DNA from: Aplectana chamaeleonis
Lineage: Eukaryota > Nematoda > Chromadorea > Rhabditida > Cosmocercidae
Assembly: GCA_029168955.1 (NCBI GenBank)
Contig: JAPDOI010001702.1
Span: forward strand, 1 to 64,000
Length of the DNA: 64,000 nt
Direction: 5' to 3'
Below, piece by piece: positions 2,621 through 63,840 of the stretch. Every line of letters starts with the position of its first letter. The first letter of the stretch is position 1. A program made the translations under genes and the position numbers. The notes beneath the pieces are model-generated. The model made no database searches. It saw only the letters and a list, made by a program, of their open reading frames with translations, and was not told where the DNA came from.

Positions 2621-3571
2621 GGTGAATAATTTGAAACGGAAATTCGAAAGTGTGTTTCAAGAGGGCTTAGGCACATGTACGAAAGAAAAGGCAGATTTGA
2701 AATTGTTGCCAAATGCTAAGCCGATTTTCAGAATGAAAAGGTCTGTCGCGCATGCACCGTTAGATACGGTTGAAAAGGAGATTGAGCGCCTGGAAGAAAT
2801 GGATGTGATCGAACCGATAACCCATGGTGAATGGGCCGCTCCGAATCAATCACTATGGGTTAGTTTGCGTTCGTAAAGCGAATGGCAAAATGAGGGTCTG
2901 CGCCGATTTTTCAACTGGTTTGAACAACGCCTTGGAGGCATATGAGTATCCTATTCCCATTCCGGAGAATATTTTCGAATCTCTGAATGGTGGAACGATG
3001 TTTTCACAAATTGATTTTTCGGATGCTTACCTTCAAGTACAACTGACGGATGGGGCCCAAAAGCTGGTAGTGATCAATACACACAAGGGTCTATATCGTT
3101 ACAAAAGGTTGCCTTTTGGTATCAAGACAGAGCCAGGAATTTTTCAAAGCATCGTGAATAAAATGATATAGGGTTTGGAAGGAGTAGCAGCTTACCTGGA
3201 CGATATTCTGATAGTCGGAAAAACACCTGAAGAGCATAGAAAAAACATTAATGCTTTATTTGAACGAAGAAAAGAATACGGGTTTTGTGTAAGACTCGAA
3301 AAATGCTCGTTTGCAAAACCAGAAATCCGTTTTCTCAAATTCGTTTTAGACCGAGATGGATATCGTCCTAATCCAGAGAAGGTGGCTGCCATCGCCAAAA
3401 TGCCAGCTTCACAGAATGTGGCTATATTGCGCGCATTCCTAGGTATGGTTACGTATTACTCGTCCTTTATACCGAACATGATGGAGATGCGCGGACCACT
3501 GGATGCTTTGCTGAAAAAAGGCGTTAAGTGGAAATGGAAGCACCACATGAAACAGCGTTCGAAAAACTGAA
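2620..3571 (+). pseudogene. Gypsy reverse transcriptase, tandem copy 2
   Basis: Ty3/gypsy RT palm and fingers: KANGKMRVCADFS, FSQIDFSDAYLQVQL, RYKRLPFGIKT and the catalytic AYLDDILIVG near 3190-3215, followed by the thumb/connection segment FLGMVTYYSSFIPNM. It is interrupted by a frameshift near 2875 and by a TAG at 3169-3171 just before GLEGVAAYLDD. Domain order and spacing match the minus-strand gypsy. Inactive relic. Confidence 0.9.
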
Positions 3572-4104
3572 GAGAGTGTTGATGTCAGATTCGAATTTGA
3601 CACACTACGATCCTACAAAGAAACTAATCGTAGCTGCTGACGCGTGCGATTATGGGATCGGATACGTGATTTCGCACAAAATGCCTGATGGAACAGAAAA
3701 GCCGATCGCCCACGGCTCGAGATCACTAGCAGTCGTAGAAAATAACTATGCCCAGATCGAAAAAGAGGCTTTGGGTCTTGCGGAGGCAATGAAAAAGTAC
3801 CACAAACTTGTTAATGGGAGGTGTTTTACGCTCCGAACTGACCATAAGCCGCTGCTGGCCATATTTGGTAGCAAAAAGGGCATACCGGTCCATTCACACA
3901 ACCGTCTCGTTGAACAACAATGCTGATAGACTATGACTTCGAAATCGAGTCCATCAAGACGGACTCGTTTGGACAAGATGATGGTTTGTCAAGGCTGATA
4001 CAGAGGCATCCTCTTGTTGAGGAGGATCGCGTAGTCGCCTCAGTGTAGGTTGACGTGAATGTAGTGCTTGCAGACGCTATTCGTAGGTTGCCCGTCACGG
4101 CAAA
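3528..4104 (+). pseudogene. Gypsy RNase H, tandem copy 2
   Basis: RNase H with the first Asp in AADACDYGIGYVISHK, the Glu in QIEKEALGL and the Asp in RTDHKPLLAIFG, then a frameshift near 3920 and FGQDDGLSRLIQ carrying the last Asp. It stops inside the linker to integrase near 4104, where the satellite begins. No integrase follows, so this element was cut at that point before or during the tandem duplication. Confidence 0.88.
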
Positions 4105-4110
4105 TTCGAG

Positions 4111-4345
4111 AAAGCTTCAATCGAATATTCGAAAAAGGGCAATATCCGACTATGGTCGAAAAGTCGAATATTTAAAAAAGTGCGATATCCCACTATAGTC
4201 GAAAAGTTGGGTATTCGAAGAAGGGCGATATCCGGCTTCAGTCGAATATTCGAATATTCGAAAAAGGGCGATATCCGACTATAGTCGAATATTCGAAAAA
4301 GTGCAAAAAAGTCTTATATCCGACTATAGTCGAAAAGTCTTCAGG
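4111..4345. repeat. 43-bp palindromic satellite block 2
   Basis: Near-copy of the block at 1486-1716, with the same joint to truncated RNase H and the same pattern of shortened units. The unit contains CGAATATTCGA and CGACTATAGTCG palindromes. Confidence 0.9.
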
Positions 4346-4389
4346 ACAACTAGCGAGTAAAAAGTATGCAAAGAGACTATACAAAAAAA

Positions 4390-4632
4390 AGGAGCCGGCT
4401 TTCTTCAGCCGCAGGAACTTTGGCGGAGGAAACGTGATGGTTTGGGCAGCCTTCACAGCAACTGGGAAGGTCGGAATCGCATTCGTATCGAATCGTATGG
4501 ATTCACTTGAGTACCAGGAAGTGTTGGCTTTGCATAATCTTCCGTATTTTCGTCGTCGGAGACGTCAGGGCTTCCGTTATGTCCAAGATAATGCCACTAT
4601 ACACGTCAGCCGATCTACTCTGGGCCCGTAGC
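4390..4632 (+). pseudogene. Tc1-like transposase fragment (middle of DDE domain)
   Basis: The frame from 4392 reads FGGGNVMVWAAFTATGKVGI, then YVQDNATIHVSR. FGGGxVMVWAAF and QDNAxIHxS are the blocks around the second catalytic Asp of Tc1/Tc3-type transposases. The N-terminal helix-turn-helix and the last part (PDLxPIENLW) are absent. The frame ends at a stop near 4629. It sits directly beside the duplicated satellite, so it was fused there by rearrangement. It could belong to the same family as the C-terminal fragment at 34660-34986, but the two do not overlap. Confidence 0.82.
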
Positions 4633-13244: not shown

Positions 13245-13700
13245 CGAATCGTGGGACCACCATAGCTGTTCTGTTTTGCTTCCTTTGAAGTTTCCCCGTT
13301 GCGAGTCGTGGTGGGACCACCACAGCCGTTGCATATTGCATCATTCAAACTTTCTCAGTGATAAATCGTGGTGGGACCACCGGGGGTGTTGCATATTGAA
13401 TCCTTTGAGCTTTCTTCTTTTCGGATCGTTGTGGGACCACCTCATTTGTTGCGTATTTGGCCCTTTCAAGCTTCTCCGTCACGAATCGTGGTGGGAAGAC
13501 CATAATAGTTGCGAATTGCGTCCTTTAAAGTTTCTCGGTTACGAATCGTAGTGAGACCATCGTAGTAGTTGCATATTGTGTCCTTTAAAGTTTCTCTGTT
13601 ACCAATCGTGGTGAGACCTCCGTAGCCGTTGCATATTGCGTCCTTTAAACTTTCTAAATTTTCTTCGTTGCCACTCGTGGTGGGACCCCCGCAGCTGTTG
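13245..13700. repeat. 60-bp tandem array, left arm of B
   Basis: Eight units at exactly 60-base pitch (the last slightly longer), each with a palindrome-like GTGGTGGGACCACC core followed by GTTGCATATTG and CCTTTAAAGTTTCTC. Degenerate units keep the spacing. Possible protein-binding array of the element. Confidence 0.93.
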
Positions 13701-23019: not shown

Positions 23020-23400
23020 GGTCCCACCACGAGTGGCAACGAAGAAAATTTAGAAAGTTTAAAGGACGCAATATGCAACGGCTACGGAGGTCTCACTACG
23101 ATTCGTAACCGAGAAACTTTAAAGGACGCAATTCGCAACTATTATGGTCTTCCCATCACGATTCGTGACGGAGAAGCTTGAAAGGGCCCAATACGCAACA
23201 AATGAGGTGGTCCCACCACGATCCGAAAAGAAGAAAGCTCAAAGGATTCAATATGCAACCCCCACGGTGGTCCCACCACGATTTATCACTGAGAAAGTTT
23301 GAATGATGCAATATGCAACGGCTGTGGTGGTCCCACCACGACTCGCAACGGGAAACTTCAAAGGAAGCAATACAGAACAGCTATGGTGGTCCCACGATTC
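23020..23400. repeat. 60-bp tandem array, right arm of B
   Basis: Seven units at 60-base pitch with GGTGGTCCCACCACG cores, the mirror of 13245-13700 less one unit. Confidence 0.92.
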
Positions 23401-38544: not shown

Positions 38545-39001
38545 TTAAAGGGATCGTACGCGCTGAGAACCACTCACCGTTTTTTCGAGTTTGAATCATT
38601 GGTTGAGCCCCCTGAGACGTGGGTAGAGTTTGTCGGGTCACCGACGCATTATTGGGAAGATATCGGTGATCGAATGCCTCGAATTCCACCAAAAGAGGCT
38701 GGCCTTCTGAAAACCATGTGGCACAAATGAAAAAGAATGAAGGTTTTCAACAAGGGATATCGCGCAAATGAGTGGAAGTTGATGTAACATTTGTTGAAAA
38801 GCTACCCTCTTTTCTCATTTGAGGCCACATGACTGTCGGAAGGCCGGCCTCTTTTGGTGGAATTTGAGGCATTCAATCTCCCATATCTTTCCAACGATGC
38901 GTCGGTGACCCGACAAACTCTTCCCACGTTCTCAGGGGGCTCAACCAATGATTCAAACTCAAAAAACGGTGAGTGGTTTTCAGCGCGTACGATGCCTTTA
39001 A
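38545..39001. mobile_element. 457-bp palindromic MITE (family 3)
   Basis: TTAAAGGGATCGTACGCGCT and AGCGCGTACGATGCCTTTAA form the ends. The arms extend ~165 bases each (CACTCACCGTTTTTTCGAGT, CCAAAAGAGGCTGGCC) around a ~130-base centre. Coordinates include TTAA at both ends. Inserted inside the family 1 MITE. Confidence 0.9.
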
Positions 39002-39530
39002 GTGGTTCCCGGGTAGAACTAAAATGACGTAAAAATTATACATTGGATTCGACTCATTTCAGAAAACTGCGAAAACTGTTTTTCTCTTCACCATCAACCT
39101 AATGCTTGAAGAAAAGGTTGTTTTCCAATCGAAATTCATCATATCATTCATGCGAGGTTAAAATTGTCGTCGACTTCGCATTAGTGCTCATAAAATGAAG
39201 GTTATTTGAAATGATTCGGATATCCGAAAAAAATCGGATGTTTTAGAATTTCTTGTCACAGTAACTCCTAGTCACCTAAAAAATAAGGTCATTAAGCCTT
39301 TTCAGTCCTGATAGATCCAAACGTGAAGCTTTCAGTCAAAGCTGAAGCCCAGAAAAGCGATTTTTGCAATTAATCTCAATGAGTCGGATCCATTGTATAG
39401 TAGAAATTAAGAAAAACGCACTAGAAGGGCACGAAATCCTTAGGTACCAGGCCGTCCAATAATTCCTGTCCGAAATTTTTCAAAATTCTATAATTTTCCT
39501 TATAAGTGTTATAATATCAGGCAAGTGTAA

Positions 39531-39548
39531 GAACCTTCTAGAAGGTTC
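39531..39548. promoter_or_regulatory. Perfect four-unit heat-shock element
   Basis: GAACCTTCTAGAAGGTTC is four alternating GAA/TTC pentamers, the consensus site for trimeric HSF, with the TTCTAGAA core typical of nematode hsp-16 promoters (family knowledge). It lies ~22 bases upstream of the TATA box. Confidence 0.85.
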
Positions 39549-39569
39549 TCCAAAGTTCTACGCTAGGGG

Positions 39570-39577
39570 TATATAAG
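39570..39577 (+). promoter_or_regulatory. TATA box of the mariner transposase
   Basis: TATATAAG, ~38 bases before the ATG and ~22 bases after the heat-shock element, a spacing suited to a short heat-shock promoter. Confidence 0.75.
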
Positions 39578-39614
39578 GCGCAGTCGCCGCGTCTAGCTAC
39601 CAGTACAAGCTAAA

Positions 39615-40628
39615 ATGGACCAAGGTCGAATTCGTACGTTCGTGTACTACGAGTGGCTGCTGGGCAACGACACGGGCACCGCGGTCGCCAACAGCTGCAG
39701 AGCGTGCAAGGAGGATGCAGTGTCCCAACGCACAGTCAGCCGCTGGTTCAATCGTTCCGGGAGCGGCGACACGAGCCTCGAGGACAGCGAACACAGCGGG
39801 AGGCCCTCTACGGTGGATGATGACGAAGTCCGTCGCTGTATCAAGCAGAAGCCGGAAGCCACCACCCGTGAACTGGCGACGACGCTCGGCTGCAGCAAGT
39901 CCACCATCCACAATCGACTCAACTTACTCGGCTACCACAAAGTTTTGACTCGTTGGATCCCCCACCGTCTGACGGACGCCAACAAGCAGAGCCGCGTGGC
40001 TGTCTGCCAGTCCCTCCTCCTTCGTCCGCATCGCAAGGAGTTTCTCGAGGAACTGGTCACTGGGGATGAGAGTTGGGTCCTCTACGACAACGTCGCCCGC
40101 CGTGCCGTCTGGATCCCGCGCGGAGAAGAGCCGCCGACGACGCCGAAAGCGGACCTGCACCCGCTGAAGATCATGCTCTGTTGCTGGTAGGACACCAAGG
40201 GCATGCTGTGCTTCGAGCTGCTCCCGCAAGGCAGGACGGTCACCGCCTCCATCTACACCGATCAGCTCGAGAAACTAGCCGCCGCCATCCGAGAAAAGCG
40301 TCCCCGACGGGCCTCGGTCCACCTGCTGCACGACAACGCGCGCCCCCAAGTGGCGGAGGAGACCCAGCAGATGTTGGCGACGCTCGGCTGGGAGACGGTT
40401 GCCCATCCGCCGTATTCCCCGGACCTCGTCCCTTCCGACTACCACTTGTTCCGCCCGCTGAAGCACCATTTGGCCGGAAGAAAATTCACCAACTACGACA
40501 ACCTCGAATCCGACATCGCAGACTTCTTCGAGTCGCAGCCCCAGGAGTTCTGGGCGAAGGGCATCGGCGACCTGCCCAATCGATGGGCCACTGTTGTGGA
40601 TAACTGTGGTGATTATATTGTTAATTAG
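39615..40628 (+). pseudogene. mariner transposase with one internal TAG
   Basis: Would be 337 residues, a normal mariner length. The N-terminal helix-turn-helix region (QRTVSRWFNRSGSGDTS, then CSKSTIHNRLNLLGYHK) binds the terminal repeats. The WIPHRLTD linker corresponds to the family's WVPHELT. Catalytic D34D triad: Asp in TGDESWVLYDN, Asp in LLHDNARPQ, and Asp in PSDYHLF exactly 34 residues later, with YSPDL between. A TAG at 40188-40190 replaces the Trp of the conserved W-D-x-KG block; reading continues in frame to the stop near 40626. AATAAA follows near 40640. I see no other lesion. The start is the first ATG after the TATA box. The high third-position GC differs from its neighbours and may reflect recent or horizontal arrival. 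Confidence 0.95.
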
Positions 40629-41168
40629 ACTTGTTTTTCAATAAAGTTGAAAAAAATTAAAAATGGTGAAATTTTCGGACAAGAATTATTGGACAACCTG
40701 GTATCACCCCGCCTCTTAAGTATCACAGGAAGTGTTTGTTGTGACAATAAAATCTTTTGTGGACGCGTCCTTTGCAATTCTCTACTCTCTATTGCTCCGT
40801 TCTTTCCTTAGGGCCCGAACTAATCCTGTTTTGCGTAAAATATTCTTCTATTTTCGATTGAACCAATTTTCCACCGGTGACATCCACCATGAACATGTTC
40901 ATCCAGCCGGACAACTAGTCCATGTTGTAGAATAATGTCTCTGAAATACGACGTTTTAATGCATTTTTTGCCGTTTCTTCGTAATTTCGGTAACACTTGG
41001 AGGCCAACGCACTATTCTGAGTGGAGAACTCGGGAACGAAAATCATCGTGAACACTGCATTTAAGTACGCAAGCGTACTGAGAGAAAAAAATTCAAAGGT
41101 ACAATGGTGCAAAGAGTCCAGTTGAAGTTTGCCTTTGAATCTAGCGCAGTCTCGTAAAGCTGAAGGTA

Positions 41169-45390: not shown

Positions 45391-46015
45391 TTTATTCTCG
45401 GAAAAACGGGTGGTGGACGATCTGTCCCAAGAAGGGTGGAGCCTAGGCGAGGTGCGAGCGAGGTGTGAATTACGGGAGTCGTCGACTCGGACTAATTACC
45501 GCTTTTTACTCACTGCCCCCCCCCATTGTTATACGAGACGCTATCCAACAATGCAAACACAGGTAAAAGTGTCGTTGCGTGCTAGTGTCAAAGATATCAT
45601 TCGGGTGTCTTCGAGCATTGTGCGACATTAGTGTGAACGATCTTCCTTTGGCAACTTGTGCCTATCTGTGATGACCGAGGTCGAACCTCCCATACACGTA
45701 ATTTTATTCTCGGAAAAACGGGTGGTGGACGTTCTGTCCCAAGAAGGGTGGAGCCTAGGCGAGGTGCGTGCGAGGTGTGAATTACGGGAGTCGTCGACTC
45801 GGACTAATTACCGCACTTTACTCACTGCCCCCCCCCATTGTTATACGAGACGCTATCCAACAATGCAAACACAGGTGAAAGTGTCGTTGCGTGCTAGTGT
45901 CAAAGATATCATTCGGGTGTCTTCGAGCATTGTGCGATATTAGTGTGAACGATCTTCCTTTGGCAACTTGTGCCTATCTGTGATGACCGAGGTCGAACCT
46001 CCCATACACGTAATT
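45391..46015. repeat. Two direct copies of a 312-bp unit in foldback D centre
   Basis: TTTATTCTCGGAAAAACGGG begins at 45391 and again at 45703. The units are nearly identical through GTCGACTCGGACTAATTACC and the C run before ATTGTTATACGAGACG. Parts of the unit recur in reverse near 46800-46875 (GTAATTAGTCCGAGTCGACG) and in decayed form near 48420-48510. Confidence 0.92.
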
Positions 46016-49000
46016 TTTTAGGAGGCTTCCACATCTTCATTTGAATTGAATGAAAAACAGGTTTTCAGAAGCATTCATCTGGAAAATATTGAGAAGTCCA
46101 AGCCGAATTTATTCTACAATTCGAGAATATCACAACGTCATTATTTGAAACCATTTAGTCATAAAAAAATCCAAACACAGTATTTTCTCTATTAGAAGAA
46201 CCTCCCATTTGAAATACAAAAAAAGAGAGAAGACTGAATAATAGAAGTAAACCCTCTTTCCGAAGTACACCTCTATTACTAGCACATTTCGGAACAGGAT
46301 GGGGAATGAACATTTTGACTGCGAAACAAGGCTTAGAAGAAGATGATAAAATTTATGAGTAGGGAAACAATCACTCAATCTAACTTGGTGGTTGTTGATG
46401 GCGAATTTCATAGTTTAGTTGTGATAATGTCCACTGTATTTCCACCATGGGCTTTTCGGAAAATGAGGCTGAAAAATAGAAGTACACCTGTATTAGGAGT
46501 TCACCCCAAAATTAGATATGAAAAATGGAAGTACATGCATCTCTCTGAAAACATGGTAGGTTTTTCGATTTATTCATTGATTCGAGATGTTCCGAAAATG
46601 CAATACTATAATTATTTAATCATTCCGTACTAAAGTCGAGTGCCCATGTCTATATGTCACTTCTCTTATCAATAATATTAATATTATCATCACTCTAATC
46701 ATCAGATTGAGTTTTTTCAACAATCCTGATATGCACTGCTTAAACACGAAGTATTATTTATTTCGCTCAAAATGGTCTTTCGTTAGAGAATAGCGTCTCG
46801 TTTGACAGTGTCTGGCCCTAGCAGTGAGTAAAGTGCGGTAATTAGTCCGAGTCGACGACTCCCGTAATTCACGGTTGCGATACCATTGACAACCAAGCAT
46901 GCCTCGCCCACTTTCCCTCGCGCTTGCTGCGCCCTCCACCCTGGCTCTCGCGACGGAGACACAAAGAAAAAGACGCTACTGTTGTGTCGTCGACTGGCAT
47001 CTGACAGATGAGCGAGGTTTTGCTGCATAATCTGGCAAACATCGGCCACGACCGCTTCGTCTTTAGAGATGCTGAGATTGAAATCACAAACTGAGAATGC
47101 ATTTCCTGCAGTACAAATTCTTCGAGTTTACCCGTATTTATATTCCCTAAAAATCGGGAAGAGTTCTAACGACCACTCTCTTTATAACACTTCAGTTCGC
47201 TTAAGAAAATTACGGGATGCAATACTAACCTGCTGATTAAACATATGATAAAGAAGAAAAGGCAAGGCAAACTCTATAAAAATGAGTACTTTCAAGCAAA
47301 AGTGGCTTGACGCTGACAAACACGTTCCTACAAAAAGAAACAATAGGAAAGTGGAGTGGGCGAGCTTACGAAAATTTAACAATGCTTCTTGAGAGCCAAT
47401 TCTCGTAGCTGAAATTTCGAATTCACGTAATCAAGTCGTGTCATTCTTCAGAGAAGAGCTTTGTGGTTCAGGAAATGAGCTTACTCCGGTTATTCTAGTA
47501 CCGGTGGAAATATTTTATACCTATTATCGACAAGAAGACATAAAGTCTGACCCACAGAACCGGATTCTTTTCGTTGATCAGAGAAGTGAACTGGTGAAAG
47601 TACAGAAGCAACTGAACCTTTCCAAACAAAAGAGTCTTTTATAGAGAGGCATCAGGCTGTTTCATGCGAAATATGTAGATCAACGGCTTGTTATTGAAAA
47701 TTGAAAGTTTTTGCCATGTGAAGTTTTTTTTTTTTTTTTTTTTTTTTGCCATCAGTTCCCAAAAAATTTTGTTAATTTTTTGAAGACTCCTTCATCCTGT
47801 TTTACTGTTGCTCCCTTTTTGGAACGTTTCTGTCTGCCCGAAACCACCTCTGCCTGAAACAGCTCCTTTTTGATAGAATTACTCACTTATTTGAAAATAC
47901 GTGGTGACCCACGAGAAATCTCCAAGATTTTCCGATTTGTACCGATTGATTTTATAACAGTAAGTAGCTTCTTTGTTGACCAGTTCCTCTGTACCACCTC
48001 ATTAAAAAAATTGCAGCCTATTACAGCCTACAACGTTTTTCACCGATTCGATCGAAGAAAAATATCGATAATTTTAGTGATACCTTCCTAGTTTCAAACC
48101 TTGTTGTGGGGGAACCCAAGATTCATCCATGAAAATAAGAATTTCTTTCAATACCAGATACATGATATCGTTATACGCGAGTGTTTTCTGGAGACTTCAT
48201 GGGAATGCTCTGATTTCTGAAAGCGCTAGCTTTCGCTCTTCTCTGGGATTCCGAGTGCTCCCCTCAAACTAGGTTTGCACTCATCCCTGTAGTGTACAGC
48301 CAAAGCTATAAATGGGTCCACCCCGCGGAGACGCAGAGATAGACAGTTTGCACTTTAGCCGGGAGGAGAGTGCCGGGCCGGCTGGCAGCGCCTTTCTTTT
48401 CGTCCTCTGCGCTCATCATACTGACTCGGACACCCCGCGTGCCGAGTTGTCAATACTCCGGAGACCGTAATTCACACCTCGCTCGCACCTCGCGTAGACA
48501 CCGCCCTCCTTGGGACAAAACGTCCCGCTGCCCGGAAAAACATCAAGTTCCAAGAAAAACATAGATTTCAAGAATTTTGAACGGGATTTTGAATTCCAAG
48601 TGCGTAGAAATCGTATTTTGTTTTCAAGAATTCCAGTTCTTGGCAAAATGATAGCGGTTTCTCTAAAAAAAATCCGAGTCTTCGAATATTGGAGTTCTTC
48701 TTCTACGAATTTTAGAGAAGAAAATTCGTATACAAAACCTCAGCTTCCTATAAATCATGTGTCCCAGGAAATCACAATTTTTTCGACTTTCGACGAATTT
48801 CCATCTTCAGATACCAGAAAGCAGAAATATTTTTCCCGAGATATAGATTTATCTCAATGGTCGATCAATTTCTAATTTTCAATTTTCTGTGAAGGCAGGA
48901 TTTTTCCAATTTTGCTGAAACTCGAAAAATTTTTTGAAGCAATAATTTTTCTGATTTAGGGCCCAACTCCCACTCCCGGAGCTTCTGAAAAAAAGGGGAG

Positions 49001-62885: not shown

Positions 62886-63423
62886 GATGGTAGTTGGTCT
62901 AGGCAAGGAGGTTTGGAGGCCCTATGAGGGGTTGACATTTTCTTTCATACTATTGTGCTCCATCGAATACGTATCCAAGCCTAGCTGAGATCCTCGACAA
63001 AGTTCGGGGTTCTGAAATTGCCCCCCCCCTAGAAGAATGATGACACAAAATAGGCGTTTCATAAATCTGACCACTTTTTGGGGGATTTTTTTTTCAAACA
63101 GCTTTTTCTCCAAGATTGCACGATTTTTCTGGAGCTTTCCACTGAAGCCTTTTCCTTTGTTTGCCAACCTCCACAACAGCAATAGCAATCGAGATACGTT
63201 TTCTCGCACGTACAGCCTCTTCTCTAGGAAGAAGTCTGGACGGAGGCAGGTGGAGGAGGCCCCGGGCACTGCGCGTTCGATACAGATCACAGGGCAATTT
63301 TCCTGTACTTGCCGGGGAGTTCTCTTTCACTTTTCAAATTTAATTGTGGGCATTAGCTCTTTTAGAAAATTGAGGTTAAAAATAAAATCTAAGCAGTATA
63401 CTTGTTCCAAATGAAATTCATTT
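62886..63423. other. Unassigned, no gene recognised
   Basis: Overlapping short frames near 62922-63414 on both strands are not identified. A C run lies near 63021. Confidence 0.4.
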
Positions 63424-63840
63424 CGGATATCCGACTTTTCGACTATAGTCGGATATCGCCCTTTTTCGAATATTCGACTTTTCGACTATAGTCGGATATC
63501 GTACTTTTTCGAATATTCGACTTTTCGACTGTAGTCGGATATCGCCCTTTTTCGAATATTCGACTTTTCGACTATAGTCGGATATCGTACTTTTTCGAAT
63601 ATTCGACTTTTCGACTATAGTCGGATATCGCACTTTTTCGAATATTCGACTTTTCGACTGTAGTCGGATATCGCACTTTTTCGAATATTCGACTTTTCGA
63701 CTATAGTCGGATATCGCACTTTTTCGAATATTCGACTTTTCGACTGTAGTCGGATATCGCCCTTTTCGAATATTCGACTTTTCGACAGTAGTCGGATATG
63801 AGACTTTTCGAATATTCGACTTTTCGAATAAAAGTCGACT
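63424..63840. repeat. 43-bp palindromic satellite array, about 9.5 units
   Basis: Nine full units of CGACTTTTCGACTATAGTCG... ending TTTTTCGAATATT, then a partial. Variation is concentrated at TATA/TGTA in the central palindrome and at CCC/TAC/CAC after GATATCG. The last units lose one T. Same unit as near 1.5 and 4.1 kb, there in reverse orientation. Confidence 0.97.

Follow-up and report, generated by a model that had tools for sequence, protein, structure and literature searches.

The motif in the leader of a mariner transposon within the window (the whole stretch of 64,000 nucleotides that was analysed) is a textbook heat-shock element (HSE) array, and it is placed like a promoter element. 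The exact 18-bp core of the array was found at 1181 places in the window's own assembly, and all of the 40 places sampled lay inside copies of the same mariner, at the identical position in the leader. With a probability of roughly two in three, the source mariner had a compact heat-shock-type promoter, its transposase was driven by HSF-1, and its HSE was spread by insertion. Taken as a whole, the sequences make the element a strong candidate for a mariner with a heat-shock switch. The element has the following features:

39445..39446, no strand: left TA target-site duplication, from the sequence.
39447..40701, plus strand: mariner element of 1255 bp (CCAGG...CCTGG), recognised by its inverted ends and TA flanks.
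39447..39479, plus strand: 5' terminal inverted repeat, 33 bp.
39530..39549, no strand: perfect palindrome of 20 bp with four perfect HSE units (GAA TTC GAA TTC, in 5-bp steps).
39551..39558, plus strand: HSE unit 5 (CAA, one mismatch) and unit 6 (TTC), in phase.
39570..39577, plus strand: TATA-box-like TATATAAG, from the sequence; putative function.
39615..40628, plus strand: mariner transposase frame, 337 codons and stop, DD34D, broken at codon 192.
40640..40645, plus strand: AATAAA, likely poly(A) signal, from the sequence; putative function.
40669..40701, minus strand: 3' terminal inverted repeat, 33 bp.
40702..40703, no strand: right TA target-site duplication, from the sequence.

The two terminal inverted repeats differ from each other by 4 mismatches, and TA is present on both sides of the element. 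The transposase starts at the ATG at 39615 and ends with the stop codon at 40626–40628. When the halves on either side of the internal stop were searched apart, HTH_48 and Transposase_1 were found above the Pfam cut-offs, and DDE_3 fell just below its own (28.5 versus 28.6 bits). The first 191 residues matched the Mos1 chain 4u7b of the PDB (E=4.1e-28), and the catalytic triad consists of D151, D240 and D275, with 34 residues between the second and the third D (DD34D). The two domains found above the cut-offs, the DD34D triad and the TA target are shared with Mos1, which has a length of about 1.3 kb, comparable to the element here. The earlier note had called the element a mariner, and this was confirmed by the Pfam domains, the Mos1 match and the triad: it is a mariner of the mauritiana type, the subfamily of Mos1. 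One in-frame stop was found in the window copy, at codon 192 (40188–40190), and the copy therefore lacks the intact transposase of an autonomous element, which is a state of the copy and not a requirement for membership in the mariners. The third codon positions of the transposase (39615–40628) are 78% G+C, against 40–45% in the leader and the 1-kb flanks; this contrast hints at an origin in, or a long codon adaptation to, another base-composition setting.

Within the leader, GAACCTTCTAGAAGGTTC at 39531–39548 is a perfect four-unit HSE (GAA-CC-TTC-TA-GAA-GG-TTC), and the sequence from 39531 to 39560 reads GAACC TTCTA GAAGG TTCTC CAAAG TTCTA. Six units run in 5-bp phase to 39558, with 17 of the 18 positions matching; with at least three alternating GAA/TTC units in 5-bp steps taken as the definition of an HSE, the leader array is one. 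The stretch 39541–39558 also scored alone as a four-unit match with one mismatch, and a weak look-alike with 2 mismatches to the four-unit pattern lies in the leader at 39481–39498. The palindrome was seen by matching the mariner against its own reverse. TATATAAG starts 21 bp past the 18-mer, and the ATG lies 37 bases beyond TATATAAG. Four alternating GAA/TTC units, TATATAAG and the ATG, all inside the terminal repeats, had been described in the earlier note, and both the sequence and the coordinates agree with that description; the motif had also been called the HSF consensus, which holds for the four perfect units, and the array proved longer than claimed.

The motif had further been likened to heat-shock gene promoters, and ttctagaa is indeed printed in the hsp-16.2 and hsp-70 probes of PMC9148306, in the part of that paper that was available. 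The promoters of these two C. elegans genes resemble the window in their GAA/TTC arrays centred on TTCTAGAA (across the first four units, hsp-16.2a and the window have 4 differences in 20 bases), but the arrays belong to host genes, whereas the window array belongs to a mariner. Over four units, the window (12/12) scored above hsp-16.2a and hsp-70 (11/12 each), and F44E5.4 (12/12) was its sole equal among the eight C. elegans probes scored. Over five units, F44E5.4 reached 15/15 versus 14/15 for the window, and over six units the window reached 17/18, with hsp-16.2a, hsp-70 and F44E5.4 at 15/18 each; these scores apply to the probe sequences as printed in PMC9148306, one of which, here labelled 'dnj-12?', is of uncertain name. 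In the available text of the same paper, it is the tetrameric and pentameric sites among the probes that are called heat-inducible, and dnj-13, with a tetrameric site, is among the non-induced genes, so that a strong array alone is no proof of induction.

To estimate the chance of such an array, the window was described by a first-order Markov model. By exact calculation, the model predicts 0.037 arrays of four perfect units per 64 kb and about 1e-4 per 168-bp leader; for six units at 17/18 or better, the expectation is 0.0008 per 64 kb and 2e-6 per leader. Simulated sequence totalling 3.84 Mb contained 3 four-unit hits, where about 2 were expected, and 1 six-unit hit at 17/18, where the expectation was about 0.05; given this excess, the frequency of the six-unit class may lie somewhat above the exact figure. 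The odds for the window array are also odds after the fact, because the motif was chosen in the earlier note. When up to 2 mismatches were allowed, the four-unit pattern gave 25 matches in the window against a shuffle mean of 7; one of these had 0 mismatches and two had 1, and many of the 25 fall in a 43-bp tandem repeat. This repeat family is present at 1498–1716, 4121–4339 and 63421–63827, the third array being oppositely oriented as judged by eye, and many of its units contain GAATATTC (two GAA/TTC units) together with the palindrome CGACTATAGTCG. The genome count is a stronger test than the window odds.

Several other repeats were observed in the window. A Gypsy-like frame with the 43-bp array behind it is present in two copies, at 905–1927 and at 3528–4631, the second of which by eye continues into a Tc1-like transposase fragment. 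Among the matches listed for the Gypsy-like frame (best 120 of 474), the best were from Teladorsagia (62% over 84%), Ancylostoma and others were lower, and none was near identity over the length. These matches indicate strongylid relatives, and they go no further than to place the worm among nematodes of the Rhabditina side, probably strongylid-like ones. Arrays of a 60-bp tandem repeat lie near Gypsy-like frames at 13251–13655 and 23052–23373, and by eye they are related and in opposite orientation. A 312-bp unit is present at 45391–46017 in two tandem copies that are 98% alike. At 38545–39001, a large imperfect inverted repeat of foldback-like form (arms of 178 bp in three pieces, about 100 bp apart) ends about 445 bp 5' of the mariner. 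A search of the whole window against Rfam at gathering scores found nothing.

Contig C873, on which the window lies, belongs to an assembly with 1,036,593,504 bases (1.04 Gb) in 2087 contigs. About 0.015 occurrences of the 18-mer would be expected in this assembly at equal base frequencies, and the reversed-pattern control gave 0 places; because the 18-mer is its own reverse complement, both strands give the same places. The figure of 1181 counts the exact 18-mer. The sampled copies were 40 of 50 listed places (of the 1181), all on contigs C1 and C2, and did not form a random sample; had it been random, 40/40 would correspond to a share above about 93%. By the 1181 places and the 40/40 sampled, the HSE lies inside the element and is copied with it. 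The family-copy check proposed in the earlier note was thus passed by the same mariner at the same position, and the claim that the motif spread with the element stands for the places examined. All 40 copies had been picked by the motif, so that the sample covers only members of the family that keep it. Elsewhere in the element, 18-base stretches were intact in 54% of copies (leader) and 63% (coding part, in 35 copies, with L128 and four other deletion copies excluded). Combining this intactness with the 1181 exact places, we infer that about 1900–2200 copies in all would have carried the motif when they inserted; both this estimate and the count of 1181 could be too high if haplotypes remain uncollapsed in the assembly. 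The motif density on contig C1 was about 5 per Mb (40 in 8.08 Mb) versus 1.1 per Mb genome-wide.

In most of the 40 copies the element boundaries were the same or nearly the same, and TA was found directly 5' of the element in 37. Divergence from the column majority had a median of 2.6% across copies and was 2.3% in the window copy, no coding variant was present in 5 or more of the 41 rows, and the substitution rates at codon positions 1, 2 and 3 were 3.2, 3.5 and 3.9%, values that are slightly too high because L128 and four other deletion copies were kept in them. From this alignment, the examined copies, which lie on three contigs, look like the products of a burst from one source that was followed by neutral decay. 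The six-unit array was kept at 17/18 or better in 31/40 copies, and the exact TATATAAG was present within 52 bp downstream of the motif in 32/40, in 27 of them at the same 21-bp gap. The off-majority rates by region, likewise slightly too high through the same deletion copies, were 3.8% in units 5–6, 2.2% in the TATA box, 2.7–5.7% in the remaining leader and 3.5% in the coding part. Units 5–6 and the TATA box thus decay like the remaining leader and show no sign of post-insertion selection. Selection preserving the HSE in individual copies was set aside, as the coding part decays evenly. The motif itself had 0 of 820 mismatching cells, mostly by construction because the copies were motif-picked; the two outer bases of the palindrome were kept in 41/41 rows, and non-motif leader columns were likewise kept in 41/41. 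The occurrence of the motif in many copies therefore reflects descent from one source, not later selection for the motif.

In 7/40 copies, the leader ATG opens a frame of 330 aa or more, which means that potentially active copies exist. The transposase had been described in the earlier note as 'driven' by the HSE; owing to the in-frame stop, this fails for the window copy and is applicable only to other copies or to the past. Two of the 40 copies, L131 and L133, have a common internal deletion (about element positions 368–743) and keep both ends and the HSE, the exact TATATAAG being kept in one and absent in the other; the shared deletion suggests a non-autonomous form that has been copied in its own right. 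Both are open for 211 codons from the leader ATG, and their short HTH-bearing product might act as a repressor. L128 carries a large deletion and is misaligned in the fixed-length alignment, with a 'divergence' of 40%, and in L142 an insertion lies between the first 86 bp and the motif-bearing remainder of the element.

In the source element, the promoter would have been located between the 5' end and the transposase gene, and would have consisted of the six-unit HSE array and the TATA box 21 bp past the 18-mer. Transcription generally starts about 25–30 bp past a TATA box; the presumed start is near 39600, and the ATG is at 39615. In a worm under proteotoxic stress, such as heat, the array would be occupied by trimers of HSF-1, which would then drive expression of the transposase. 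The transposase would then move the element by cut-and-paste into TA sites, the HSE travelling with each insertion, and heat induction may have aided the burst. The case for function is made by the improbability of the array in one ancestor and by its placement at a TATA promoter.

It is possible, though on balance doubtful, that the HSE has long been kept in a lineage of nematode mariners (Nippostrongylus, Heligmosomoides, Caenorhabditis auriculariae) and perhaps moved between species with the element; this is compatible with a heat-shock promoter and would make the promoter older. The closest protein among the matches listed (best 120 of 497, in a collection of 5.8 billion) was from Nippostrongylus brasiliensis, with 87% identity over the whole length, and its transposase differed from that of the window at 44 of 337 positions, the stop counted. 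Among the same best 120 of 497, pieces from Heligmosomoides polygyrus had 89–92% identity over 28–35% of the query, and proteins from C. auriculariae had 57–80% identity over 40–100%. The matches in N. brasiliensis and H. polygyrus argue for a widespread lineage. The DNA of relatives was also sought: with alignment A1, 9 stretches of viral_contigs matched the pattern and 0 were relatives, and with query P0001 none was found in viral_contigs. In genome_contigs, 45 stretches matched alignment A1, of which 2 encode distant relatives (39% and 31% identity); these two came from contigs filed as bacterial MAGs and were left unused. A degenerate HSE scan of viral_contigs returned at least 120 stretches, with the exact 18-mer in 0/122 loci, and these were taken as chance matches.

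It is unlikely that the array was an accident of one source element, with HSF-1 binding weak or absent in vivo in silenced chromatin, a spread unrelated to heat, and copies that are mere hitch-hikers. One burst and neutral decay leave one ancestral motif to explain, not 1181, which is in keeping with such an accident, but the array directly precedes the TATA box, and the six-unit array at 17/18 in the leader has a chance of about 2e-6 by the exact model, a figure that, as the simulation hints, may be too low. Very unlikely is a site for another factor, either a dimeric host regulator or a second, subterminal transposase site: the perfect 20-bp palindrome includes spacer bases unneeded by HSF and, being more regular than an HSE requires, could point to another dimeric binding protein, but the GAA/TTC units keep their 5-bp phase past the end of the palindrome, through units 5 and 6, and a dimer site would not account for this. 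In addition, just one end of the element has the palindrome, and no second copy turned up when the element was compared with the window by blast. Glucocorticoid-type and STAT-type palindromes were considered and rejected, as their half-site spacing does not fit.

The preferred reading, a heat-shock promoter in the source mariner, has parallels in known systems. Like the Caenorhabditis Helitrons, the element would be a DNA transposon whose HSEs drive its own transposase and are spread by it through a nematode genome. For the Helitrons, HSF-1-bound HSEs and heat-responsive genes beside insertions are described in the available parts of Garrigues et al. (2019, PMC6927752), and HSF-1-dependent heat induction of Helitron1_CE RNA in those of Schreiner et al. 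(2019, PMC6765114), so that HSF-1 dependence has been demonstrated there. Helitrons are rolling-circle elements, often with many HSEs each, whereas the present element is a mariner, of the cut-and-paste type, whose single array lies at a TATA promoter. Neither 'mariner' nor 'Tc1' occurs in the main text of PMC6927752, whose cross-species survey (section 9) covered, as far as the available text goes, annotated Helitrons. PMC8896005 surveys the motifs of transcription factors across the mobile elements of C. elegans; in its accessible portion, HSEs are associated with Helitrons, and Tc1/mariner elements are linked to other factors, e.g. LSL-1 and LSY-2. Heat-shock elements are mentioned with Helitrons only in the portion of PMC9226531 that was available.

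Outside nematodes, ONSEN/COPIA78 of Arabidopsis (PMC3907296, available in part) is likewise a mobile element whose promoter has a heat-responsive element for the host heat factor; unlike this mariner, it is a plant LTR retrotransposon, and its heat activation was shown by experiment. Putative HSEs are also reported for LTR elements of Cryptococcus in the available text of PMC12810828. Two Drosophila Tc1-like promoters and the others tested were 'blurry', AT-rich and with weak core motifs, according to the available part of PMC6446368, in contrast to the HSE array and TATA box found here; 'heat' and 'HSF' are absent from the main text of that paper. No report of a mariner with a heat-shock element was found among the papers listed, as judged by titles, the opening of abstracts and the available text, in literature in which few subscription journals are covered, so that this is weak evidence of absence. 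HSF-controlled mobile elements are thus already known, and the mariner version, outside Caenorhabditis according to its relatives and at such a copy number, appears to be new.

A wider scenario is speculative and, as a whole, probably too strong: a mariner, independently of the Caenorhabditis Helitrons, would have gained a true promoter of the heat-shock type, multiplied in a burst to some two thousand copies and seeded more than 1000 strong HSF-1 sites that are now in the heat-shock network of the worm. The nearest protein relatives hint at a strongylid parasite of warm-blooded hosts; should the worm be one, the warming that it undergoes on entering the host would be the recurrent trigger of transposition. 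The case bears on whether stress-inducible elements repeatedly rewire stress networks or do so only exceptionally, as the Caenorhabditis Helitrons do. It concerns a different transposon class, in a nematode genome of 1.04 Gb (that of C. elegans is about 0.1 Gb), with a strong HSE array whose exact core is present at 1181 places, and every insertion, having a gene of its own nearby, can serve as a natural reporter.
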